From: Oscillospiraceae bacterium
Lineage (GTDB): Bacteria > Bacillota > Clostridia > Oscillospirales > Ruminococcaceae
Assembly (NCBI GenBank): GCA_017472735.1
Contig: JAFUOD010000002.1
Location: 1 to 64,000, forward strand
DNA length: 64,000 nucleotides
Direction: 5' to 3'
The notes under the pieces are model-generated. The model did not search any database, was not told the DNA's origin, and worked only from the letters and a program-made list of their open reading frames with translations. This document shows, in pieces, positions 8,424 through 54,807 of the stretch (within the stretch, counting starts at the first letter, position 1; every line of letters starts with the position of its first letter). Position numbers and translations under genes: made by a program.

Positions 8424-8476
8424 AAGCTTGATGCAGTAAGAAAGCTGCTGAAAATTCTTAAAAGGTGGGATATTTA

Positions 8477-10051
8477 ATGCTTAGCTTTGGCGAAAGATTA
8501 AGAAAAGCAAGAAAGAGAAAAGGGCTTTCTCAGGTTGATGTTTTTAAAGCATTGGGACTTAACAACAAATCGCTTTCACGTTATGAAAACGGCGAGACCA
8601 CACCAAACCCCGAAACCTTGCAGAGATTGATTCGTCTTTATGATGTTTCGAGTGAGTATGTTTTAGGCCTTACTGATGTTATGGGCCATTCGTCTGATAG
8701 CGCCTTTGATGGCGACGGCGCAGGCGAAAATCTGGTTGAAATGATTGATAACAAGTCGTCTGCAAAAAAGCTTTTGTCATTTATATCTGCCAGCCCGTCA
8801 CGCTTTCATGCAATTGCAAACATTGCATTGCGACTTAACAACGAAGGTTTTACCGAGCTTAAAGAGGCGCAGAACTGGGAGATTAAACCCGGTGGGAAGT
8901 ATTATGTTACCCGTAATCTTTCGTCAATTATCGCATTTAAGGTGGGCGAGGGTGATGTTAAAGGCTTTAACATTGTGGCTTCGCACAGCGATTCACCCTC
9001 GTTTAAAATTAAGCCTAATGCCGAAATGGAGACTTTGGCGCACTATATACGCCTTAACACCGAAAAGTATGGCGGAATGTTATGCTCGACATGGCTCGAC
9101 AGACCCTTGTCGGTTGCGGGCAGGGTAGTTGTATCCTCGGGTAATAAGCTAAAGAGCGTTTTGGTGAATGTAGATGAGGACCTTTTAATGATTCCAAATG
9201 TTGCTATTCACATGAACCGAAATGCAAACGATGGGCTTTCTTATAACGCACAAACCGACATGATTCCTTTAATTGGTGACGAGCGTGCAAAGGGCAAGCT
9301 TTTGCGTGCAGTTGCCTCTGCAGCAGGAGTGAAAGAGAGCGACATTATCGGAACTGACCTTTACTTATATAACCGCATGGCAGGCACTGTTTGGGGTGCC
9401 GACGGAGAATTTGTTTCGAGCCCTCAGCTTGATGATTTGCAGTGTGCTTACGCTTCTCTGCAGGGCTTTTTGGCAGGAGGGAATGCTGAGACCGTCTCTA
9501 CCCTTTGTGTTTTCGATAACGAAGAGGTTGGCTCATCTACTCAGCAGGGTGCAAACTCAGATTTCTTCATAACAACAATTGAACGTATTTGCGACGGTTT
9601 GGGCAAAAACAAGGCACAGATGTTGCCGTCCTCGTTTATGGTTTCGGCAGACAACGCACACGCTGTTCACCCCAACCACCCCGAATATGCTGACCCCACC
9701 AACCGCCCGTTCATGAACGGTGGCATAGTGATCAAGTTTAACGGCAACCAGCGTTATGCAACCGATGCGGTTTCTGAAACCATATTCAAAAGGATCTGTG
9801 CATCTATAGGTGTGCCTGTGCAGACCTATGCCAATCGATCTGACATACCCGGCGGCTCGACCTTGGGCAATATTTCAACCACAAAGGTATCGCTTAACAC
9901 TGTTGATATAGGTTTGGCACAGCTTGCCATGCATTCAAGTTATGAGACAGCAGGCAGCATGGATACGCTTTATTTGGAACGCGCATGCGCTGAATTTTAC
10001 CGAACAGCGATTATAAGAGAAGCTGACGGAGAATATGAACTGAAGGCTTGA
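8477..10051 (+). CDS. M18 aspartyl aminopeptidase with N-terminal XRE DNA-binding domain
   Basis: A 524-aa fusion. Residues 1-66 are a Cro/C1-type HTH (FGERLRKARKRKGLSQVDVF, then LSRYENGETTPNPETL and LYDVSSEYVLGL). Residues 85-524 are a complete M18 metalloaminopeptidase, which removes N-terminal, often acidic, residues from peptides. Likely metal and catalytic residues are all there: H170 and D172 in SHSD, D319/D320 in SPQLDD, E349-E350 in DNEEVGSS, D392 in SADNAH and H486 in AMHSSYE. Plain M18 enzymes are about 430-460 aa without the HTH. The ATG at 8477 is chosen because a GTG at 8465 overlaps the AAAGGTGGGA ribosome site. The HTH may tether the enzyme to DNA or turn it into a peptide-sensing regulator (inference). 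Confidence 0.88.
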   Translation: MLSFGERLRKARKRKGLSQVDVFKALGLNNKSLSRYENGETTPNPETLQRLIRLYDVSSEYVLGLTDVMGHSSDSAFDGDGAGENLVEMIDNKSSAKKLLSFISASPSRFHAIANIALRLNNEGFTELKEAQNWEIKPGGKYYVTRNLSSIIAFKVGEGDVKGFNIVASHSDSPSFKIKPNAEMETLAHYIRLNTEKYGGMLCSTWLDRPLSVAGRVVVSSGNKLKSVLVNVDEDLLMIPNVAIHMNRNANDGLSYNAQTDMIPLIGDERAKGKLLRAVASAAGVKESDIIGTDLYLYNRMAGTVWGADGEFVSSPQLDDLQCAYASLQGFLAGGNAETVSTLCVFDNEEVGSSTQQGANSDFFITTIERICDGLGKNKAQMLPSSFMVSADNAHAVHPNHPEYADPTNRPFMNGGIVIKFNGNQRYATDAVSETIFKRICASIGVPVQTYANRSDIPGGSTLGNISTTKVSLNTVDIGLAQLAMHSSYETAGSMDTLYLERACAEFYRTAIIREADGEYELKA

Positions 10052-32398: not shown

Positions 32399-34507
32399 AT
32401 GAAAAGAATTATTTCTTTATTGCTTACTTTGGCAATGTGTCTTACAGTTCCGGCAGGCTGCGGAAGCTACACGGAAAAAGGCGGCGGGATGGAGCCACCC
32501 TTGGCCGCCATGAACGAATTGGGACAGCTTGAGGCTTCCACTATGAGGCCCGAGGAAACCGTTACCGTTGACGGCACGGTTGAAGATGCATGGAGCGTGA
32601 TTGATGCCACTCAGCTTAATGCTTCAAGCAGTTATTATGTGCCCGCAAGCGCAACGGTTAAAGCACTGTGGGACGATGCGTACCTTTACCTTTTGGTTGA
32701 GGTTGAGGACGCCGAGGTCAACCCCGAGCTTGACAGCGCCGAATTCTTTATCGACACTCTTTGGGATAAAGCCAAGGCTTATGAAGATGACGACTATAAT
32801 TTCAGCGTTCTTGCAAACGGCACCTCAAGTATGATGTCGGGTGACGGAAGCTTTTTATGTGGCGTGAGCAATACAGAAGCAGGCTATACCGTCGAAGTGG
32901 GGATCAAGCTTGACGGCCTTCTTACCGATGGCTGGGTGATGGGCTTCGATGTGAGGGTCAATGACTATGACTCCTCGGGCGGATTAAAGGGGGCAATAAA
33001 CCTGTTTGACAGAACCGATTCCTGCAAGGCGTCTCCCTCGGCACTTGGTGAGCTTTATTTCAACGGTTTCACTACCTGCTCTGCCAGCACCGAAGGCGTT
33101 AAAAAGCTCATTGAAAGGCTTGAAGCCGAAGACCTGACCGTTTACGGCGGATATGAAACGATGTATTCACGAATTTCAAATTTGAAATCACTTTTAGAAA
33201 AAACAGATCTACACGCAATGGAGGTAACTGAGGCCATGAGTGACACACATAAAGCATATGAAAAGCTTGTAGATGCATCGGGATTCCCCGAGGTTAAGGA
33301 TATTGAGCAGAATGCTGAGTATCCCGACCCGTTTGTTATGCTTGACGGAACCGAAATGGAGACTGCCGATGATTGGGTAGCAAGAAGAAAAGAGATCAGC
33401 GACATGTATCAGTATTATATGTACGGCGTGTGGCGTGACGGCTCGGATGAAATTGTAACTTACGATTATAAAGATGGCACACTTACCGTTTACATTGAAA
33501 GAATTTCAACAGGTGCAAAAGCGCAGTTTGCCGCAACAGTTAAACTGCCCGATTCATCTGTTAATGCGCCCTCTAAAGCAGGTTACCCCGTTGTTGTTGG
33601 TATGCACGGCGGCATAAGCGAGGACGTTGCAAACAAAAACGGCTTTGCAACTATCACCATTAATTCCGATTGGTTCTCGCCTCACCCCATTGCCTCTGAC
33701 GACACAAGGCACACAGGTGCTTTTTACGACCTTTATCCTTACGGCAACACATGGCAGGAGCAGACAGGAGTTTTGATGGCATGGAGCTGGGGCTGCTCGA
33801 AGATTTTGGACGCACTTGAGGCAGGCCTTGGCGAGGAACTTAATATCGACAGCACCAACTCGATAGTAACGGGCGTTTCGCGTTATGGCAAGGCGGCGGC
33901 AGTGTGCGGCGCATTCGAGCCGAGATTTAAAATGGTTGCACCTTCCTGCTCGGGTGCAGGCGGATTGGCACTTTACCGCTATGTTTCAAAGGGCAAGACC
34001 TATGACTTTAGCTCTAAGGGCGCAGCCGCCGCTTATACTTATGGCGATAACGAGCCTTTGGGCAGCTTGCAGTCCTCGGGCGAGGTTGGCTGGTTCAACA
34101 ACAATTTCAAGCAGTTTAAAAATGCAAATCATTTGCCCGTTGACCAGTATATGCTTGCAAGCCTTGCTGCCGACGAAGACAGATATATGTTTATCATCGG
34201 CTCGTGCATTTATGAGGATTGGGTAAACGCCCCTGCAATGTGGTATACATATTTGGCATCCAAGCAGATTTATGATTATTTGGGCGTTGGCGACAATATT
34301 AAGATAAACATTCATAAAGAGGGCCACGCTGTTATTGAAGAGGATATGCAGTATATGACCGAATACTTTAAAAAGATGGTTTACGGCATTGAACCCGAAA
34401 GCGATTTAAGCGTTTTGGATACCTCGGTATTTGCACTTGAAGAAAACGTTGACCACGCAATGGATGACTTTACAGGCGATTGGATCATTAACTTTATGCT
34501 TGACTGA
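32399..34507 (+). CDS. CE15 glucuronoyl-esterase-like lipoprotein with CBM9-like domain
   Basis: A 702-aa exported protein. The lipobox is VPAGC (Cys21). Residues about 55-220 look like a family 9 carbohydrate-binding or DOMON-type domain (VDGTVEDAW, VKALWDDAYLYLLVEVED, AEFFIDTLW, YTVEVGIKL). Residues about 320-690 are an alpha/beta hydrolase of CE15 type. The nucleophile is Ser494 in TGVSRYGKAA, the oxyanion partner follows in RYGK, and the catalytic His is in IHKEGHAV near residue 640. CE15 enzymes split the ester between lignin alcohols and glucuronic acid on xylan (family knowledge). It is probably bound to the outer face of the membrane. GGAGGGG precedes the ATG. Confidence 0.85.
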   Translation: MKRIISLLLTLAMCLTVPAGCGSYTEKGGGMEPPLAAMNELGQLEASTMRPEETVTVDGTVEDAWSVIDATQLNASSSYYVPASATVKALWDDAYLYLLVEVEDAEVNPELDSAEFFIDTLWDKAKAYEDDDYNFSVLANGTSSMMSGDGSFLCGVSNTEAGYTVEVGIKLDGLLTDGWVMGFDVRVNDYDSSGGLKGAINLFDRTDSCKASPSALGELYFNGFTTCSASTEGVKKLIERLEAEDLTVYGGYETMYSRISNLKSLLEKTDLHAMEVTEAMSDTHKAYEKLVDASGFPEVKDIEQNAEYPDPFVMLDGTEMETADDWVARRKEISDMYQYYMYGVWRDGSDEIVTYDYKDGTLTVYIERISTGAKAQFAATVKLPDSSVNAPSKAGYPVVVGMHGGISEDVANKNGFATITINSDWFSPHPIASDDTRHTGAFYDLYPYGNTWQEQTGVLMAWSWGCSKILDALEAGLGEELNIDSTNSIVTGVSRYGKAAAVCGAFEPRFKMVAPSCSGAGGLALYRYVSKGKTYDFSSKGAAAAYTYGDNEPLGSLQSSGEVGWFNNNFKQFKNANHLPVDQYMLASLAADEDRYMFIIGSCIYEDWVNAPAMWYTYLASKQIYDYLGVGDNIKINIHKEGHAVIEEDMQYMTEYFKKMVYGIEPESDLSVLDTSVFALEENVDHAMDDFTGDWIINFMLD

Positions 34508-45558: not shown

Positions 45559-45672
45559 TTAGATGATATTATTATGGCAAGAAGTCAGTGCGGGCTGCCG
45601 ACCTGCACGGTAATTGTCTTTTAATATTTGCGCGTTAAATGCGTGAAAGATTTATATAATGGAGGATTTTTT
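45559..45672 (+). promoter_or_regulatory. Leader of the transporter operon with a stem-loop
   Basis: A 114-base untranslated leader. GTGCGGG (45588-45594) pairs with CCTGCAC (45602-45608) with one G-U. GGCAAGAAGTCA precedes it and GGTAATTGTC follows. I cannot assign it to a riboswitch family. Confidence 0.4.
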
Positions 45673-48222
45673 ATGTCAAACACATTAAGAAAAGTATTGT
45701 CTTTGCTTTTGGCAGTTGCAATGCTTATGTCTTGTGCTGTTGTATTTGCAGGTTGTGACAACACCGATAACGACAACCCTGTTGTTAGCGGCGATCAGAA
45801 CGTTGACGACGTTCCGGACGAAGGCGATAAGGAAGTTGATCCTAACGCTACCTACACCTACAACACATCCGCATCCGTATTCCCCACTTTGTGGAACCCC
45901 CACACCTATCAGACTGCTACAGACGCTGTTCCCCTTGATTACACATCTGTAGGTTTCTACACCTTCGATTACAACGAAACCCTTGACGGTTATAAGATCG
46001 TTCCCGAAATGGCTGTCGCTGAACCTGAAGATGTAACTGCTGACTATGTTGGTGAAGAATGGGGCATCGCTGAAGGTGACACCGCTAAGGCTTGGAAGAT
46101 CACCTTGAGAGACGACCTCAAGTGGAATGACGGCACTCCCATCACCGCTAACGATTTCGTTAAGTCTGCAGAGCTCTTGCTCAATCCTGCTGCTCAGAAC
46201 TACAGAGCTGACTCTCTCTACTCCGGTTCTATGGTTGTTCACAATGCTAAGAACTACCTTTATGCAGGTCAGTACGCTTACTCTCCTATGATCGACTACG
46301 GCTATGCTGCAGTTGCTGATTTGACAGTTGGCGAAGACGGCGCTTATGACACTGCTGACGGCGACCTTTGGTTCAACTTGTATGACGGCGTTTCATGGAG
46401 CTCTAACAGCTTGACCGACTATTACAATGCTGGTTACACTGCTGAAATGACTAAGGACGGCGTTGACCTTTATGCAACTGTTCTTGCAGCTAACGCTGAT
46501 GAAGACGGCTATGTTGCTGTTACTGCTGAAGTTGCTGATGCTCTTATGTTCATCGTTGCTAACCTTCACGGCTATGCTGATGCTGATGCTTACGCTGTTG
46601 ACGCTGGTGACTATGCTTACACCGAATGGAACGAATTCATTCAGATCGGTTCTACTTATCCCGAAATGACATTCGATGCTGTTGGCGTTAAGGCACTTAA
46701 CGATACTGAGCTCGTTCTTATCATTGACAAGCCCCTCGAAGGCTTCTACCTCCTTTACAGCCTTACCGGTACTTGGCTCGTAAAGAACGATCTTTATGAA
46801 TCTCTCATCACCATTACCGACGGCGTTTACAACAACACCTACGGTACTTCTGCTGAGACCACTCCTTCTTACGGTCCCTTCGTTCTCGAATCCTTCCAGG
46901 CTGACAAGCAGATGGTATTCACCAAGAACGACAACTGGTATGGCTACACTGCATATCCCGGTTGCTACCAGACAACCAGCGTAGTAGTTGACTACGTTGA
47001 AACTGCTGCTACCAGACTCGAACTCTTCTTGCAGGGTAAACTCGACACCTACGGTCTCGATGCTGCTGACATGCAGGACTACTCTAAGTCTGAGCACACC
47101 TACTACACCACCGGTGACTCCACCTTCTTCATCGCTTTGAACCCTGATCTTGATGCTCTTAAGTCTGAACAGGAAAAGCTTGGTGCTAACAAGAACAAGA
47201 CCATCCTTACCATTCCCGAATTCAGAATGGCTCTTAGCTTCGCACTTAACAGAGCTGAGTTCTGCTTGGCTACTTCTCCTGTAAACAACGCTGCATTCGG
47301 CGTATTCTCCAGCATCATCATCTCCGACCCTGACAACGGTGTAGCTTACAGAACCACCGAACAGGCTAAGGACGTTTTGGTTGACTTCTGGGCACTTACC
47401 GATGAAATCGGCGAAGGCAAGCTTTATGCTGATAAGGACGAAGCTATCGCTTCCATCACAGGCTACAACCTCGAAATGGGCAAGCAGTACTTCGACCTCG
47501 CTTATGACAAGGCTATCGAAGCCGGTCTTATGGACGAAGACGACGTAATCGAAATCAAGATTGGTCAGCCTAACGGCACATCCAACTTCTACAACAACGG
47601 TTACGACTTCTTGGTTAACAACTATACCGAAGCTGTTAAGGGCACCAAGCTTGAAGGCAAGCTTACCTTCACCAAGGATGATACTTTGGGCAACGCATTC
47701 TCTGATGCTCTTAAGACCAACAAGGTTGACATGCTCTTCGGCGTGGGATGGACCGGTTCCGCTCTCGATCCTTACGGATTGATGGAAGCTTACACTGCTC
47801 CCAACTATCAGTACGACCCCTCTTGGGATACCACTACTGATATGCTTACTGTAAACATCGATGGTACTGATTACACTGCTTCTGTTATTGATTGGACATA
47901 CTGCATCGTTGGTACTCCTTGCACCGTAACTGCAGCAGACGGCACCACAATGGAATATTCCTGCGGTACTGCTGACGGCGATCCCGAGACCAGACTTGCT
48001 ATCTTGGCTGCTCTCGAAGGCGCAGTTCTCAGAACCTACGACATGATCCCGATCATGGACGACTCTTCTGCAGCTCTTAAGGGTATGCAGATCCAGTACT
48101 ACACCGAAGATTACATCTACGGTGTTGGCCGTGGCGGCATCAAGTACATGACTTACAACTACACTGATACCGAATGGGATGCATACGTTGCTGAAAACGA
48201 CGGTATCCTTAACTACAAATAA
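45673..48222 (+). CDS. Peptide ABC transporter substrate-binding lipoprotein (SBP family 5), enlarged
   Basis: An 849-aa lipoprotein. The signal ends at VVFAGC (Cys27). An acidic linker follows, then an OppA/DppA-type fold: NPHTYQTATDAVP, KAWKITLRDDLKWNDGTPITANDFVKSAE, the central LNDTELVLIIDKP, ALNRAEF, and a C-terminal YTAPNYQYDPSW and GGIKYMTYNY. Ordinary family members are about 520-600 aa. Much of the extra length is an Asp/Ala/Tyr-rich stretch around residues 190-320 (YDTADGDLWFNLYDGV, YADADAYAVDAGDYAY). Codon use is strongly biased, consistent with high expression. The ATG at 45673 follows GGAGG. It binds peptides outside the cell for the permease below (inference from family and operon). 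Confidence 0.9.
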   Translation: MSNTLRKVLSLLLAVAMLMSCAVVFAGCDNTDNDNPVVSGDQNVDDVPDEGDKEVDPNATYTYNTSASVFPTLWNPHTYQTATDAVPLDYTSVGFYTFDYNETLDGYKIVPEMAVAEPEDVTADYVGEEWGIAEGDTAKAWKITLRDDLKWNDGTPITANDFVKSAELLLNPAAQNYRADSLYSGSMVVHNAKNYLYAGQYAYSPMIDYGYAAVADLTVGEDGAYDTADGDLWFNLYDGVSWSSNSLTDYYNAGYTAEMTKDGVDLYATVLAANADEDGYVAVTAEVADALMFIVANLHGYADADAYAVDAGDYAYTEWNEFIQIGSTYPEMTFDAVGVKALNDTELVLIIDKPLEGFYLLYSLTGTWLVKNDLYESLITITDGVYNNTYGTSAETTPSYGPFVLESFQADKQMVFTKNDNWYGYTAYPGCYQTTSVVVDYVETAATRLELFLQGKLDTYGLDAADMQDYSKSEHTYYTTGDSTFFIALNPDLDALKSEQEKLGANKNKTILTIPEFRMALSFALNRAEFCLATSPVNNAAFGVFSSIIISDPDNGVAYRTTEQAKDVLVDFWALTDEIGEGKLYADKDEAIASITGYNLEMGKQYFDLAYDKAIEAGLMDEDDVIEIKIGQPNGTSNFYNNGYDFLVNNYTEAVKGTKLEGKLTFTKDDTLGNAFSDALKTNKVDMLFGVGWTGSALDPYGLMEAYTAPNYQYDPSWDTTTDMLTVNIDGTDYTASVIDWTYCIVGTPCTVTAADGTTMEYSCGTADGDPETRLAILAALEGAVLRTYDMIPIMDDSSAALKGMQIQYYTEDYIYGVGRGGIKYMTYNYTDTEWDAYVAENDGILNYK

Positions 48223-48265
48223 TAAGTATTTGTTTCTGAGTTTATCAGTATAGAGTAGCATGATT

Positions 48266-48314
48266 AAGCCCTCGGAGGAGGAGAAAATCTTCTCCGAACC
48301 CGAGGGCTTTATTT
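48266..48314 (+). terminator. Partial terminator between binding protein and permease genes
   Basis: AAGCCCTCGG pairs with CCGAGGGCTT around an inner GGAGAA/TTCTCC stem, then TATTTTCTT. It would allow more binding protein than permease to be made. Confidence 0.75.
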
Positions 48315-48340
48315 TCTTGATAGCCATATTTCGCGATTTC

Positions 48341-48396
48341 GCGATTGCATATGTATGCGCTTGAATCTCAAGAATGTACAAATGCAATCGCATACG
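48341..48396 (+). other. Nested inverted repeats between binding protein and permease genes
   Basis: GCGATTGCA (48341-48349) pairs with TGCAATCGC (48383-48391). CTTGA/TCAAG (48360-48372) sits inside, and GTATGCG (48353-48359) could alternatively pair with CGCATAC (48389-48395). The two pairings exclude each other, as in a switching RNA or an mRNA stabiliser. No known family is recognised. Confidence 0.4.
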
Positions 48397-48486
48397 CTAT
48401 ATTAGTTTAGCTCTTTAAAGTGAAACTGTTAAAAGCTTGAGTTTAGCAGTACACTTAAAACAGCAAATAAATAACAGGGGGTTATT

Positions 48487-49437
48487 ATGTTTAAGTACGT
48501 TTTAAAACGAATTGCTTTGATGTTAATGGTATTTTTAATTATCATTTCAATTTGCTTTGTTCTCGTAAAACTCTTGCCAAACACTCCTGCAACACAGTTT
48601 GGCAAGGATATGCAATTGATTGAAATGAGACGAGAAGCATTGGGCTATAATAAGCCGCTTATCGTTCAGTACGGTATTTTCCTTCAGAAGTCGCTTTTGG
48701 GCGGTAACTGGGGTGCTTCCGAATCATTATATGTTGGTCAGGATGTTTGGGATATCTTTATCAGCAAGCTTCCTGCAACCATGCTTGTAAACGTATATGC
48801 AATGCTCTTCAGCGTTCCTATCGGTCTTCTTTTGGGCATTTATGCTGCTCTTAAAAAGAACCGTTGGCAGGACCACCTTATTTCAACCGGTATCATGGTC
48901 TTCGTATCTGTTCCCGGATTTGTAACAGCGTTCTTCGTTCAGTATTTCCTCTGCCATAAGCTGCAGTGGTTCCCGATGCAGATGCTCCCGGGTGATGATT
49001 ATTTCACATGGGCAATGTTCATGTCTTTGGTTCCTGCAATCCTTTCGTTGGGATTCGGTACGATTGCAGGCCTTGCACGTTACACCCGTGCCGAGCTTTG
49101 CGAAGTTTTGACCAGTGACTTTATGCTTTTGGCAAGAACCAAGGGCTTAACAAGAGGACAGGCTACTGTTCGCCATGCTTTAAGAAACTCAATGGTTCCT
49201 ATTTTCCCAATGATCATCGGTGAATTTATCGGTATCATCGGCGGTTCTCTCATTATCGAGCAGATCTTCGGTATCCCCGGTGTAGGCCCGTTGTATATCA
49301 AGTCTATCACATCAAGAGACTATAACTTCTATATGCTGCTCTCGTCCTTCTACACCTTCATCGGTCTTTCGGCAAACATTCTGGTCGACCTCAGCTATGG
49401 ATTTATTGATCCTCGTATAAGAATGGGGGAAAGATAA
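48487..49437 (+). CDS. oppB: Peptide ABC transporter permease, OppB/DppB type
   Basis: A 316-aa permease of normal length with six membrane helices. It starts FKYVLKRIALMLMVFLIIISICF and has LPNTPATQF, ALGYNKPLIVQYG and GGNWGAS. The cytoplasmic EAA loop is LARYTRAELCEVLTSDFMLLARTKGLT, followed by RHALRNSMVPIFPMI, GGSLIIEQIFGIPGVG and DPRIRMGER. It pairs with the OppC-type permease and is translated just before it (3-base gap). GGGGG precedes the ATG. Confidence 0.93.
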   Translation: MFKYVLKRIALMLMVFLIIISICFVLVKLLPNTPATQFGKDMQLIEMRREALGYNKPLIVQYGIFLQKSLLGGNWGASESLYVGQDVWDIFISKLPATMLVNVYAMLFSVPIGLLLGIYAALKKNRWQDHLISTGIMVFVSVPGFVTAFFVQYFLCHKLQWFPMQMLPGDDYFTWAMFMSLVPAILSLGFGTIAGLARYTRAELCEVLTSDFMLLARTKGLTRGQATVRHALRNSMVPIFPMIIGEFIGIIGGSLIIEQIFGIPGVGPLYIKSITSRDYNFYMLLSSFYTFIGLSANILVDLSYGFIDPRIRMGER

Positions 49438-49440
49438 GCT

Positions 49441-50979
49441 ATGGATATTAAGAATATACCTGTTGAAAAACTGCGCTTTGTTGACAGAAACGAATTCATA
49501 TCTGACAAGAAGTTTGAAACCAAGCCCGTTAGTTATGCTAAAGACGTTTGGAGACGTTTTTGCAAAAACAAATCGTCTGTTGTTGCAGCTGTTATCGTTT
49601 TGCTTTTAATTTTGTTTGCGATCTTTGTACCTTTTTTGTGCGCTAACAAATATACCGAAAGCCTTACTGACACCACATATTTGCAGTATACAAAGCTTTT
49701 GCCCAAAAACGATCTTTGTGTAAAGCTTGGTATCGATTTCTGGAACGGTACCAAAAAGAGAACCGTAAATAAAAATGAGTTCCTTTATTTCGGCGGTATC
49801 GAGGCTGAAACCGGTTACACCGTTTATACAGATATTTACAAAGAGAATTATGCTGACAATTCGGGCTCCACGAATACAACATATTACGATGTTCGCGAGG
49901 ACGTTTATACCAAGAACGGTATGATCTATCTTACCCTTACCGAAGCAGAATTCAAGGCTATTCAGGAATGGCAGAATGAAACCGGCGTTCAGGTTATTTT
50001 CCCTGCTGTTAACACCTCATCATTCAAGCTTAAGTCCTTAGAATCTGACGCTAACATCTGGTATCAGTGCGACCAAAAGGGCACACCTCAGCTCGACAAG
50101 GACGGCAACTATCAGGCGCTTTACAAAAAGAGCGGAACCGATGACGGTTATAATTCGTTAAGAATTGAAGGCGACGACGGAAGCTATCGTTATGCTCAGG
50201 TAGGCGGTACTTCCGAAGCCAAGTCTTACAAGGTAAGAGTGTTTACCTACACTTACTTCCAGTATCGCTACGGCTTTGAGCCCAGCTTCTTGTTCGGTAC
50301 AAATGCCAAGGGACAGGATATTTTAACAAGACTTGCATCCGGTGCAAGATTCTCGCTTTTGCTTGCAATCGGTATTTCTGTTATCAACCTCTTCATCGGT
50401 GCTATCTACGGTGCTATTGAAGGTTACTACGGCGGCGTTATCGACCTCGTTTTGGAACGTGTTTCCGACGTATTATCGGGCGTTCCCAGCATGGTTTTGC
50501 ACTCACTGTTCCAATTGCATCTGGCAAACAAGGTAGGACCTGTTTGGTCGTTGCTGTTTGCTTTCGTGCTGACGGGATGGATAGGCATGGCGTCAAGAAC
50601 AAGAATGCAGTTCTACAGATTTAAGCATCAGGAATATGTACTCTCGGCAAGAACCTTGGGTGCCAAGGACGGAAGACTTATGTTTAAGCATATCTTCCCA
50701 AATGCTATGGGTACAATCATTACAGGCTCGGTACTTTCGATTCCCGGCGTTATCTTTGGTGAAACCAACCTCACTTACCTGGGCATTGTTAATCTCGAGT
50801 CGTCTACCATGACCAGCGTAGGTACGCTTCTTTCCGGTGGTAATGCGTTTGTTTCGACTTACCCTCACATCATCTTGTTCCCCGCTATTTTCATTTCACT
50901 TCTCATGATCTCGTTCAACCTCTTCGGTAACGGCCTCAGAGATGCATTTAACCCTTCTCTCAAGGGCGTGGAGGACTAA
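49441..50979 (+). CDS. oppC: Peptide ABC transporter permease, OppC/DppC type, with a large extracytoplasmic insertion
   Basis: A 512-aa permease; ordinary OppC proteins are about 280-340 aa. Residues 30-67 hold the basic start and first helix (SSVVAAVIVLLLILFAIFVPFL). From about residue 75 to 283 comes an insertion rich in Tyr, Asp, Asn and Thr, between helix 1 and the conserved FLFGTNAKGQDILTRLASGARFSL. It includes TGYTVYTDIYKENYADNSG and DGYNSLRIEGDDGSYRYAQVGG and is probably beta-rich and outside the membrane. The rest is normal: ASRTRMQFYRFKHQEYVLSARTLG, IFPNAMGTIITGSVL and a final NLFGNGLRDAFNP. It could form a docking site for the enlarged binding protein (inference). Confidence 0.92.
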   Translation: MDIKNIPVEKLRFVDRNEFISDKKFETKPVSYAKDVWRRFCKNKSSVVAAVIVLLLILFAIFVPFLCANKYTESLTDTTYLQYTKLLPKNDLCVKLGIDFWNGTKKRTVNKNEFLYFGGIEAETGYTVYTDIYKENYADNSGSTNTTYYDVREDVYTKNGMIYLTLTEAEFKAIQEWQNETGVQVIFPAVNTSSFKLKSLESDANIWYQCDQKGTPQLDKDGNYQALYKKSGTDDGYNSLRIEGDDGSYRYAQVGGTSEAKSYKVRVFTYTYFQYRYGFEPSFLFGTNAKGQDILTRLASGARFSLLLAIGISVINLFIGAIYGAIEGYYGGVIDLVLERVSDVLSGVPSMVLHSLFQLHLANKVGPVWSLLFAFVLTGWIGMASRTRMQFYRFKHQEYVLSARTLGAKDGRLMFKHIFPNAMGTIITGSVLSIPGVIFGETNLTYLGIVNLESSTMTSVGTLLSGGNAFVSTYPHIILFPAIFISLLMISFNLFGNGLRDAFNPSLKGVED

Positions 50980-50982
50980 ATT

Positions 50983-53124
50983 ATGGAAAAGAAACTTGAA
51001 GTTAAAAATCTGCGTGTATCATTTAAGACTGCCAACGGCAAGGTGCAGGCAGTAAGAGATGTAACCTTTGACTTGAACAAGGGTGAAACTATTGCCATTG
51101 TTGGCGAATCCGGCTCGGGTAAGTCTGTAACATCAAAGTCTATCTTGGGCATTTTGGCAGCAAATGCAATGGTCGAGGGCGGCGAGATCATATATGACGG
51201 CAGAGACCTTTTGAAGATCACCGAGGATGAATTCTACAAAATCCGCGGCGACCGTATTGCAATGATCTTCCAAGATCCTCTTTCCAGCTTGAACCCTATT
51301 ATGAGAATCGGTAAGCAGCTTACCGAAGCTATGATTTTAAAAGGCAAAGCAAGACAGCGTGCAGCCAAGCACGAATTTAACACAACTCTTAAGCTTTTGA
51401 ACAAGTGGATGATTGAAGCAAATCCCGATATTCCTGCTGCTGAAATCAATCAAAAGTGCAAAGATTTTGATGCATTTGAATTTAAGCATATCGAAATCGA
51501 ACAGTCTTATAACGAAGCTGTTGAGGCCGCAAACGAAGCCTTGTCTTCAATTGATGACGGATTGTTCCTTATTGAAAAGAATGCGTTGACAAACTATAAA
51601 GAAAAAGCCAATGACGTTGCGAACCTTGCTTCAAAGACTTATGACAAATATGTTGTAACAGGTGACAGCGAAACTAAACTTAAAACCCTTGTGGGCGAGC
51701 TTAAAGCTGTTAAGAAGACCGAGCTTGACAAAATGGCTGACATTTTGAGCAGTATTAAAGCACTTTTGACAACTGCTCTTGAAAGAAAAGTTCCCAACTT
51801 CTTTAGAATGGGTTATTATCTTAAGTTTGCAAATCAGCCCTTGCCCGACCTTTCGGTTGACCGGCTTGATGAATATCTTTTGAAGTATCTTAACGATAAC
51901 TTCATGAATGATTTCTTGGCAACAGCCCAAAATGCATTAAAACATTCAGCAAGTGTTCACAATTCCCGAAAGGAAGAAGTTATTAAGCTTTTAAACGATA
52001 GTCTGCCTGTATTCTCAAAGCCTCTTCTTATCGAAAAAGAGTGCCGAGAGTGCGAAAAGACCTTGATCAATGCGGTTGAAGATTCAATCGACAGACTTGA
52101 GATCAACAAGGACAGTGTGGCATATACATTTGCTTCCGGTCTTAAGTCGGCAATTGATTCCTACTTCGAGGGAATCAAGCGCAACAAGGCTTCTCAGAAA
52201 GCTCACGACAAGCAGCAGGCTAAGTATGACAGACTTTGTGCACGCGGTAAAAAGCCTGACTGGAAGGTTATTCCCGCAGCGCTTGTTGACCTTGAAGCTT
52301 CGGCTGAGGATATCAGACGTGTTATTTTAAGACTTAAAGAAAGATATGAAGCGGTATTGGCAGCAAGCGGCGAGCGCGATTTCGCTAAGGAAACCATTGC
52401 ACTTGTAGACTTCTTTAAGGCTAATGCCTCCGACTCGGTTTATAAGGTAACAAAGGGCATGGCAAAGCACAAGGCTTTGCGCCTTATGGAGGAAGTAGGT
52501 ATCCCCGAACCCAGAAAGCGTTACCGCCAGTATCCGTTCGAGTTCTCGGGCGGTATGAGACAGAGAATCGTAATTGCGATTGCACTTGCAGCAAACCCCG
52601 ATATTCTTATCTGTGACGAGCCTACCACTGCGCTTGACGTTACCATTCAGGCCCAGATCTTGGAGCTTATCAACAAGATCAAGGCAGAGCGTCAGCTTTC
52701 CATCATCTTCATAACCCATGACCTTGGCGTTGTTGCCAACATGGCAGATAAGATTGCTGTTATGTATGCCGGCAAGATCGTTGAATACGGCACCTCCGAG
52801 GATATATTCTACAGTCCTGCTCATCCTTACACATGGGCGCTCTTGTCCTCAATGCCCGACCTTGACACCAACGAAAAGTTAGAGGCTATTCCCGGCACAC
52901 CTCCCAACATGATTTATCCCCCTGTCGGTGACGCATTTGCTGACAGAAACAAATATGCGCTTGAAATTGACTTCGAGCTTCAGCCTCCGATGTTCAAGAT
53001 AAGCGAAACACACAGCGCCGCAACCTGGCTGTTACATCCCGATGCTCCGAAGGTTGAGCCTCCGAAGATTATTTTAGACAGAGTTGCAAGAATGAAGCAG
53101 AGAGGAGAAGAAAACAATGGCTAA
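50983..53124 (+). CDS. oppD: Peptide ABC transporter ATPase, OppD/DppD type, with a ~365-residue insertion in the helical domain
   Basis: A 713-aa ATPase; usual OppD/DppD proteins are about 320-360 aa. Walker A is GESGSGKS (41-48) and the Q-loop is FQDP (Gln97). About residues 125-490 are an extra, mainly alpha-helical and charged segment ([40 protein letters not shown]) with coiled-coil character. The signature SGGMRQR (522-528), Walker B ILICDE (541-546), D-loop TALD and H-loop His579 follow intact, and then the C-terminal Opp-specific region. There the expected Cys-rich CxxxxP[YF]C cluster is absent. The active site is complete, so it should hydrolyse ATP. GGAGG at the oppC end precedes the ATG. 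Confidence 0.92.
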
Positions 53125-54346
53125 TAACGCTAACAATAACGAAGTTCTCCTTAAGGTTGAAAATCTCTGCCAGTATTTTAAAATTAACAAGGCTGTTGAT
53201 GATGTAAGCTTCGATATCAAAAAGGGCGAGGTTTTTGGCCTTGTTGGCGAATCGGGCTGCGGTAAAACTACGACCGGCCGTTCCATCATCAAGCTTTACG
53301 ACATCACCTCGGGTAACATTTACTTTAAGGGAAAGAGAATCTGCGCCGGCACACTTTCTTATAAGCGCGCGATCGCTGACGCTAAGAAAAAGCTTAAACA
53401 GGCAATTGAGGACGCCAAGAATGACCCTGCTGCAGCTGCAAGACTTCCCGAAATTAAGGCTGAGACCGCAAAGTTCATTACCGAACAGAAGGCTGAAATG
53501 GCAAAGGCTATTCACGACCACAAAAACTGTGACAAGGAATATGCGGCAGAGGCAACCAAGGAAGTTGACAACAAGTACCTGCCTTTGATTAATTCCGCTA
53601 CCGGAGAAGAAAAGGCAAGGCTTGTGGAAGAATACAAGCGCGAGCGTAACGTTGCTAAAAAGCAGAGATTCATCACCCAGATCCAGATGATCTTCCAGGA
53701 TCCTATTGCTTCGCTGGACCCCCGTATGACGGTAAGAGACATCATTGCAGAAGGTCTTGTTATAAGAGGAGAAACTGACAAGAAAAAGATTGATGAACAG
53801 GTATTTAAGGTGTTAGAGCTTGTAGGCTTGGTAAAAGAGCATGCATCTCGTTATCCTCACGAATTTTCGGGCGGTCAGCGCCAAAGAATCGGCGTTGCTC
53901 GTGCTGTTATTATGAAGCCTGAGCTTATCATTGCCGACGAACCTGTTTCTGCGCTTGACGTTTCAATTCAGGCGCAGGTTATTAACCTTTTGAATGATTT
54001 AAGACATGATCTTGGACTTACCATTTTGTTCATCGCACACGACCTTTCGGTTGTTAAATACTTCTCCGACAGAATCGGTGTTATGTATTTTGGTAAGCTT
54101 GTAGAGCTGGCAGATTCTGATGAACTTTTCAAGAACCCCTTGCACCCCTACACCAAGAGCTTGCTTTCGGCAATTCCTTTGCCCGACCCTGCTTATGAAA
54201 AACAGCGCACAAGAATTGTTTACAATCCTTTGGCAGAGCATGACTATTCCAAGGAAGGTCCTACTTTGCGTGAGGTTAAGCCCGGTCACTTTGTTTACTG
54301 CAACACAGAAGAATTCAACAAATACGTTTCCGAGCTTAAGGATTAA
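53117..54346 (+). CDS. oppF: Peptide ABC transporter ATPase, OppF/DppF type, with a ~110-residue helical insertion
   Basis: A 409-aa ATPase; usual OppF proteins are about 310-330 aa. Walker A is GESGCGKT (44-51). Instead of passing directly to the Q-loop there is a Lys/Glu/Ala-rich helical insertion at about residues 76-185 ([37 protein letters not shown]). The Q-loop QDP begins at Gln194. The signature is SGGQRQR (251-257), Walker B LIIADEP (270-276), and H-loop His308. The C-terminus ([19 protein letters not shown]) is typical. The ATG overlaps the end of oppD by 8 bases, so translation is coupled. It should form a heterodimer with the OppD-type subunit. Confidence 0.93.
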
Positions 54347-54366: not shown

Positions 54367-54807
54367 ATGACTGAAAACTCCAATTCTAAGCTTAAAGGCT
54401 TTGTTTATACCCTTGTTTCGGCGCTGCTTCTTTGTGCGGTTCTCGCCGTGATCCGTGGACTGTTAGAGGCTTCGGATATATCACACGTCTTTATGATATT
54501 AAGTGATTCCTGCTTTGTCTGTTCGGTGTTATACATCGGATTAGGCGCACTTGTCTGGATATCCCTCAGCGGAATTTTTGACATTTTGGGTTTTGGAATC
54601 AAATCGCTTAAATATCTGTTTACCCCTATTAAAAAAGACCCTGCTGAAGGCGGATATTATGAATATGTTTTAGAAAAGCGTGAAAAGCGCAAAGGCAAAA
54701 CTCCGCCTTACCTTGTTTTGATAATCGGTCTTATCATTTTGGTTTTGGCAGTTATATTCTTAGTTTTATGGAGCGTTACAGGAGCCTATGAAGCTCCCGC
54801 AGTTTAA
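54367..54807 (+). CDS. DUF3899-like small membrane protein
   Basis: A 146-aa protein with three to four membrane helices. The middle segment LSDSCFVCSVLYIGLGALVWISLSGIFDILGFGIK, followed by YVLEKREKRKGKTPPYLVLIIGLIILV, has the SD-F and G-FD pattern I associate with DUF3899. The function is unknown. It begins 20 bases after oppF with only a modest AAGG site and no promoter between, so it may be the last gene of the transporter operon. A terminator follows. Confidence 0.7.
   Translation: MTENSNSKLKGFVYTLVSALLLCAVLAVIRGLLEASDISHVFMILSDSCFVCSVLYIGLGALVWISLSGIFDILGFGIKSLKYLFTPIKKDPAEGGYYEYVLEKREKRKGKTPPYLVLIIGLIILVLAVIFLVLWSVTGAYEAPAV

Follow-up and report, generated by a model that had tools for sequence, protein, structure and literature searches.

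A branch of Opp-type peptide importers with insertions in four subunits and a DUF3899 companion gene

The first 64,000 nucleotides of contig JAFUOD010000002.1 from an Oscillospiraceae bacterium (assembly GCA_017472735.1), hereafter the window, carry an oppABCDF operon encoding an Opp-type (type I) oligopeptide ATP-binding cassette (ABC) importer, with the substrate assigned from the family, in which four subunits are enlarged while OppB is of normal size. We suggest that the operon belongs to a branch of Opp importers that has probably grown by stepwise addition of extra domains: an outer docking platform of OppC and OppA, inner insertions in OppD and OppF, and an accessory membrane protein of the DUF3899 family. 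The novelty looks like a set of additions to a known importer: an undescribed branch, present in many gut-type Firmicutes, with a conserved DUF3899 companion and an ordinary core; no description of this variant was found in the titles and abstract starts of a PubMed Central subset without preprints. Peptide importers are a main route by which gut Firmicutes obtain nitrogen and signals, and the branch provides operons that have or lack each insertion, a natural series in which the role of the extra domains can be tested piecewise.

Operon structure

All five frames lie on the plus strand at the expected places, and the sizes and positions given in a preliminary description of this DNA (OppA 849, OppB 316, OppC 512, OppD 713 and OppF 409 amino acids, aa) were reproduced. 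The sixth gene, coding for DUF3899, was absent from that description, as was the spread of the system into a second bacterial class. The genes and extra segments, with the evidence for each, are as follows.

45673..48222, plus strand: oppA-type binding lipoprotein, 849 aa (PF00496 in two stretches; GGAGG; lipoprotein-like start)
46225..46662, plus strand: largest extra OppA segment, approximately residues 185–330 (alignment; approximate boundaries)
48487..49437, plus strand: oppB permease, 316 aa, normal size (PF00528, PF19300)
49441..50979, plus strand: oppC permease, 512 aa (BPD_transp_1 with N-terminal partner, Pfam)
49666..50286, plus strand: OppC insertion, approximately residues 76–282, loop between transmembrane helices 1 and 2 (TM1–TM2; extracellular side by homology; structure model)
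50983..53124, plus strand: oppD ATPase, 713 aa (PF00005, PF08352; motifs in place)
51358..52449, plus strand: OppD insertion, approximately residues 126–489, between Q-loop and signature (motif spacing; 32% charged)
53117..54346, plus strand: oppF ATPase, 409 aa (PF00005, PF08352)
53345..53650, plus strand: OppF insertion, approximately residues 77–178, between Walker A and Q-loop (motif spacing; 38% charged)
54367..54807, plus strand: DUF3899 membrane protein, 146 aa, three hydrophobic segments (PF13038 at 50.2 bits, cut-off 23.4; hydropathy)

The core domains of all five subunits (SBP_bac_5, BPD_transp_1 with N-terminal partners, ABC_tran and oligo_HPY) scored above the Pfam cut-offs, the family 5 binding protein PF00496 reaching 113.8 bits against a cut-off of 32.4. 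OppB and OppC are two different BPD_transp_1 permeases, and OppD and OppF each contain Walker A, Q-loop and signature motifs as well as an oligo_HPY tail. The matches to SBP_bac_5 and to both ABC_tran domains are split into two stretches, a pattern expected from insertions; together with the retained motifs and their widened spacing, this bears out the earlier view that the cores are intact and have been inserted into. The best NCBIfam matches all fell under their curated cut-offs (Opp3B 243.9 against 480, Opp3C 261.4 against 450, NF043079 463.1 against 740 and NF043078 406.9 against 800 bits). Chance or an assembly error is excluded, because near-full-length homologues of the long OppC occur in 80 other genome records.

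Distribution of the insertions

These homologues, the best 80 of 375 relatives obtained by a scan of genome contigs, show a best-segment identity of 47–69% over nearly the whole protein. They come mostly from metagenome bins named Lachnospiraceae, Oscillospiraceae, Clostridia or Bacillota, and include the isolates Anaerocaecibacter muris and Pseudoflavonifractor sp. MSJ-30. A second set comprised 16 further regions from the window's own class, among them two pairs with identical OppC ends; the two sets may overlap in species. Within 60 related genomes, the window's own included, 43 gave some OppC match and 13 had essentially the whole long OppC, a 14th (G021) being cut by a contig end; for the own genus the count was 12 of 31 genomes, plus G021. 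A search of plasmids with the long OppC gave 3035 matching records, in none of which a match extended over 80% of the query.

Where the long OppC occurs, the other enlargements usually accompany it. Long OppD was found in 73 of 76 readable cases among the 80 loci (three further copies were truncated at contig ends, and OppD was missing from one locus) and in 14 of 15 own-class regions; the copies without the insertion are L084, L092 and L104 in the first set and L143, at a contig end, in the second. OppF was long in 72/74 and 14/14 cases, respectively. L042 is truly short, and L095 was counted short through an artefact of the looser motif, as a stricter reading gives 144 aa from Walker A to Q-loop. 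Whole OppA frames reached at least 700 aa in 66/69 and 15/15 cases. Those below this length are L054, L057 and L077, of which the last two each show two adjacent OppA pieces and are likely broken frames. Profiles of the OppC and OppD insertions matched the same 5 of 243 genomes of the class sample, own genome included, with the two matches side by side, and a single genome, again the own one, of the 299 in the phylum sample, which includes some class members.

The joint occurrence anticipated in the preliminary description is therefore nearly complete, but strict interdependence is not supported, since L084, L092, L104, L143, L189, L197 and L210 have a normal OppD and L042 a normal OppF. The insertions mostly occur together and are not obligate partners; strict co-evolution is unsupported.

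Phylogeny of the branch

In a FastTree phylogeny of the joined core regions of 109 operons, 100 formed one clade with top local support and with members from two bacterial classes, while normal-sized operons and a mirror-image type (L150–L152, described below) fell outside. The same clade was obtained with IQ-TREE from 46 hand-chosen rows, the mirror-image type being left out, with a value of 100 in the Shimodaira–Hasegawa-like approximate likelihood ratio test. The distinct subclass proposed earlier is thus recovered as one well-supported clade in both core trees, and all operons with long OppA, OppC and OppF that could be placed in a core tree belong to it. OppC measured at least 427 aa in all 100 members, OppF at least 340 aa in 99 and OppA at least 700 aa in 91 (97 found); the other nine comprise three with no OppA in reach and six with cut or short frames. 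Long OppC is not exclusive to the clade, because L213 and L153, with OppC of 479 and 415 aa, fall outside it.

Operons lacking one insertion occupy different positions in this tree. L189, L197 and L210, which have long OppA, OppC and OppF and a normal OppD, make up one basal branch, whereas L084 and L092 (normal OppD) and L042 (normal OppF) are placed deep inside the clade and therefore look like losses of the insertion. Groups of the clade were compared by profile. For OppC, the window-group insertion is related along most of its extent to those of the intermediate and basal groups (profile probability 99.8 and 97.3, respectively), and to that of a nine-operon group, which includes L198, over ~32 residues only (87.8). 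For OppF, the first part of the window-group insertion is related to that of each of the three other groups (94.3–97.8), and 20 residues are common to the basal and nine-operon groups (74). The OppD insertion of the window is related to that of the intermediate group (97.8) but not to that of the nine-operon group (0.2); judged from these profiles, it arose at least twice at one site or was replaced. L198 itself is an operon read best with genetic code 4, with frames of 1016 aa for OppC, 647 aa for OppF and 206 aa for DUF3899.

OppC domain and enlarged OppA

The OppC insertion is predicted to be a compact folded domain in the loop that joins TM1 to TM2: in the structure model its 10-residue blocks have a predicted local distance difference test score of 83–96 and consist of helices and strands, and residues of the insertion are conserved among homologues. 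The core of the model superposes on Escherichia coli OppC, its fold matches solved OppC and DppC chains, and a structure comparison with the whole model, insertion included, returned permease cores. When searched alone, as the preliminary description had proposed, the OppC and OppD insertions gave no convincing known domain in Pfam or in PDB sequences (best PDB E-value 0.036, to a designed protein).

The extra length of OppA is distributed over several segments, with no single block, as seen when it is aligned with two ordinary binding proteins that the genome also encodes; the biggest segment spans residues ~185–330. This genome has three binding proteins of the OppA family, the other two frames being 521 and 543 aa long. 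We place the OppA start at ATG 45673, with GGAGG just 5' of it at 45661–45665, while the frame called by program, from TTG 45628, would give 864 aa. Antisense to oppA, a 666-aa open frame without any Pfam match (46393–48393, minus strand) is probably a shadow frame of codon use.

A lopsided permease pair is also known from the pneumococcal importer Ami, whose AmiC we take to be the OppB-type subunit; in the window, OppB has 316 aa and the extra domain sits on OppC, the opposite permease. Ami (AmiACDEF) is a five-subunit oligopeptide importer with an AmiC of 498 and an AmiD of 308 residues, and AlphaFold-Multimer models have led to the proposal that the extracellular part of AmiC (residues 31–278, two domains) clamps the binding protein; a coil between TM1 and TM2 of AmiD is proposed to touch its lobe 2 (PMC11192437). 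The likeness is that one permease has a much larger extracellular part, AmiC in Ami and OppC in the window. By this precedent, docking of the binding protein by the OppC domain, put forward in the preliminary description, is plausible, and the predicted fold agrees with the external domain assumed there. On the outer face of the membrane, the extra domain of OppC together with the enlarged OppA would make up a bigger docking platform and keep the loaded binding protein attached to the permease, working much as modelled for AmiC but from the opposite permease subunit.

Extra parts of such an importer might instead work in adhesion, peptide sensing or cell-wall anchoring, for example, and not in import, with the importer as a carrier. 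OppA of Mycoplasma hominis is described as an adhesin and ecto-ATPase as well (PMC3179953, PMC2323007), and the lack of a convincing known domain in the OppC and OppD insertions would fit such a role. In neither OppA nor OppC, however, did Pfam find a domain for adhesion or wall binding, and the ATPase insertions are cytoplasmic and so unfit for adhesion, which leaves this explanation improbable in our judgement.

ATPase insertions

Between Q-loop and signature, OppD has 425 aa in the window against 59 in a normal OppD, and between Walker A and Q-loop OppF has 149 aa against ~50 in a normal OppF. Across operons these distances range from 59 to 455 in OppD and from 50 to 306 in OppF. Similarity between the two insertions is not supported (profile probability 0.6). 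Three operons (L063, L064 and L068) have an OppF with an N-terminal extension of ~400 aa ahead of Walker A.

After correction for the tree, covariation was clear only for the lengths of the OppD and OppF insertions (rank correlation 0.41, permutation p 0.001; 0.23 and p 0.033 without the six rows missing one insertion). OppA and OppC gave 0.21 with p 0.065, and the remaining 13 of the 15 pairs had p > 0.1. This covariation lends indirect support to a possible contact between the two insertions. On the cytoplasmic side, the one in OppD, after the Q-loop and ahead of the signature, and the one in OppF, ahead of the Q-loop, may lie near each other or near a shared partner, and could tune or brace the ATPase dimer.

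The same insertions could also be loosely tolerated expansions at permissive loops, without a shared role and co-occurring by common descent alone, an account to which we give a smaller but real chance. All operons concerned belong to one clade, so that shared ancestry alone would yield co-occurrence, and the correlation of gains and losses on the tree comes down to three independent pairs, too few to test. The wide length ranges given above, the repeated absence of the OppD insertion and the occurrence, at one OppD site, of sequences that are unrelated from branch to branch also agree with it. It accounts less well for an OppC insertion with conserved residues and a confident predicted fold, for the retention of insertions over a wide range of genomes, and for OppD and OppF lengths that change together on the tree.

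The DUF3899 gene

Directly 3' of oppF, operons with a whole oppF have a DUF3899 gene in 72 of 73 cases among the 80 loci and in 14 of 14 own-class regions. The sole exception, L057, has it directly before oppA in the same operon, and in L104, which is cut by a contig end, it follows a partial oppF on another contig. Over the clade of 100 operons the gene is adjacent in 99 and, in L057, stands before oppA. The window protein has a partly conserved YYEY stretch between its last two hydrophobic segments. Eight genomes were tested and had exactly one match each.

Of 196 genomes sampled from the class, four were above the cut-off, all with a long Opp system, and three weaker matches lay below it; a fifth long-Opp genome, G259, is not among these matches and may lie outside that sample, while its region L149 shows DUF3899 after oppF. 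In a phylum sample of 149, one genome was above the cut-off, the own one. For the class of a bin titled Bacilli, the count was 69 of 169. Forty DUF3899 places from this class were inspected, twenty of them heading the list and the others hand-picked from further down: 25 lie after oppF, 4 before oppA and 6 within 2.5 kilobases of an opp gene, 4 stand alone and 1 was not found by the profile.

DUF3899 also stands beside normal-sized opp genes, by annotation in Bacillus badius and Enterococcus faecalis and by profile in Listeria. Its use as a marker of insertions only is ruled out by these cases, and the gene therefore seems, from its distribution, to predate the insertions. Among such Opp1/Opp3 systems of Bacilli, the gene adjoins opp genes after an ATPase gene in B. 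badius (L222), before oppA in Listeria monocytogenes (L224) and on the other strand beside opp1A/opp1B in E. faecalis (L225); they differ from the window in that all three have normal permeases and L224 and L225 normal ATPases. The B. badius operon, on a plasmid, has a single 668-aa ATPase gene in place of oppD and oppF, followed by DUF3899; from its length we infer an OppD–OppF fusion.

The word DUF3899 was not found in papers of a PubMed Central subset without preprints, and its conserved place beside Opp importers gives the family a first functional context. DUF3899 may be a membrane accessory or assembly factor of the importer lineage, older than the insertions. More speculatively, a large set of Gram-positive peptide importers might have DUF3899 as an unrecognised sixth subunit, and in the present branch the OppD and OppF insertions might jointly form a cytoplasmic structure for coupling, gating or handing over peptides, opposite an outer OppC–OppA clamp; we offer this extended scheme only tentatively.

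Comparison with other known importers

The solved E. coli systems OppBCDF and DppABCDF (8z21, 8z1v–8z1z) have normal-sized subunits, unlike the window importer. In E. coli Dpp, a scoop motif of DppB meets DppA, and DppD and DppF hold 4Fe-4S clusters (PMC12136057). The four C-terminal cysteines of the Dpp type are missing from the window ATPases, which differ in this from the 4Fe-4S type: OppD has no cysteine after residue 544, and the C-terminal part of OppF has one (395).

Enlarged ATPases also occur in the best-matching NCBIfam models, NF043079 (561 positions) for OppD and NF043078 (649 positions) for OppF, both of which we take, from MMSYN1 in their names, to be Mollicute models. The Mollicute OppD model has ~220 extra positions before the Q-loop, whereas the window insertion follows it, and this difference in position rules out that the two insertions are the same.

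A second Opp type within the own genus (L150–L152) likewise combines one long permease with a long OppD, but as a mirror image: OppB has 525–539 aa and OppC 324–327 aa, the OppD insertion precedes the Q-loop (289 aa from Walker A), and OppF, unlike that of the window, lacks an insertion between Walker A and Q-loop. A shared ancestry for the OppB-side and OppC-side insertions is unsupported (profile probability 0.2). A long permease with a long ATPase has therefore appeared at least twice in Firmicutes, with different insertions.

Discussion

Stepwise growth of extra domains within one branch remains the explanation we consider probable, and a number of observations weigh against it. The long OppC is patchy inside the own genus, and the nine-operon group shares a recognisable part of the OppC insertion of only ~32 residues. 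OppD insertions are missing from several lineages and differ in origin between branches. One length pair of 15 is clear, and becomes weaker once rows lacking one insertion are removed; the link between OppA and OppC lengths is not significant (p 0.065). DUF3899 occurs without any insertion and hence is no part of an insertion apparatus. Contacts among the insertions, and between insertions and OppA, are ones that we infer, and the oligopeptide substrate is an assignment by family.

Other features of the window

Three further proteins of unusual domain composition, identified with Pfam, are encoded on the plus strand of the window. An 867-aa protein (124–2727) contains seven stretches of FctA, a Spy0128-like isopeptide domain; in a 528-aa protein (8465–10051), an M18 aminopeptidase is fused to a DNA-binding HTH_3 head; and at 32399–34507 a CBM9 domain is joined with a glucuronyl-esterase-like domain.

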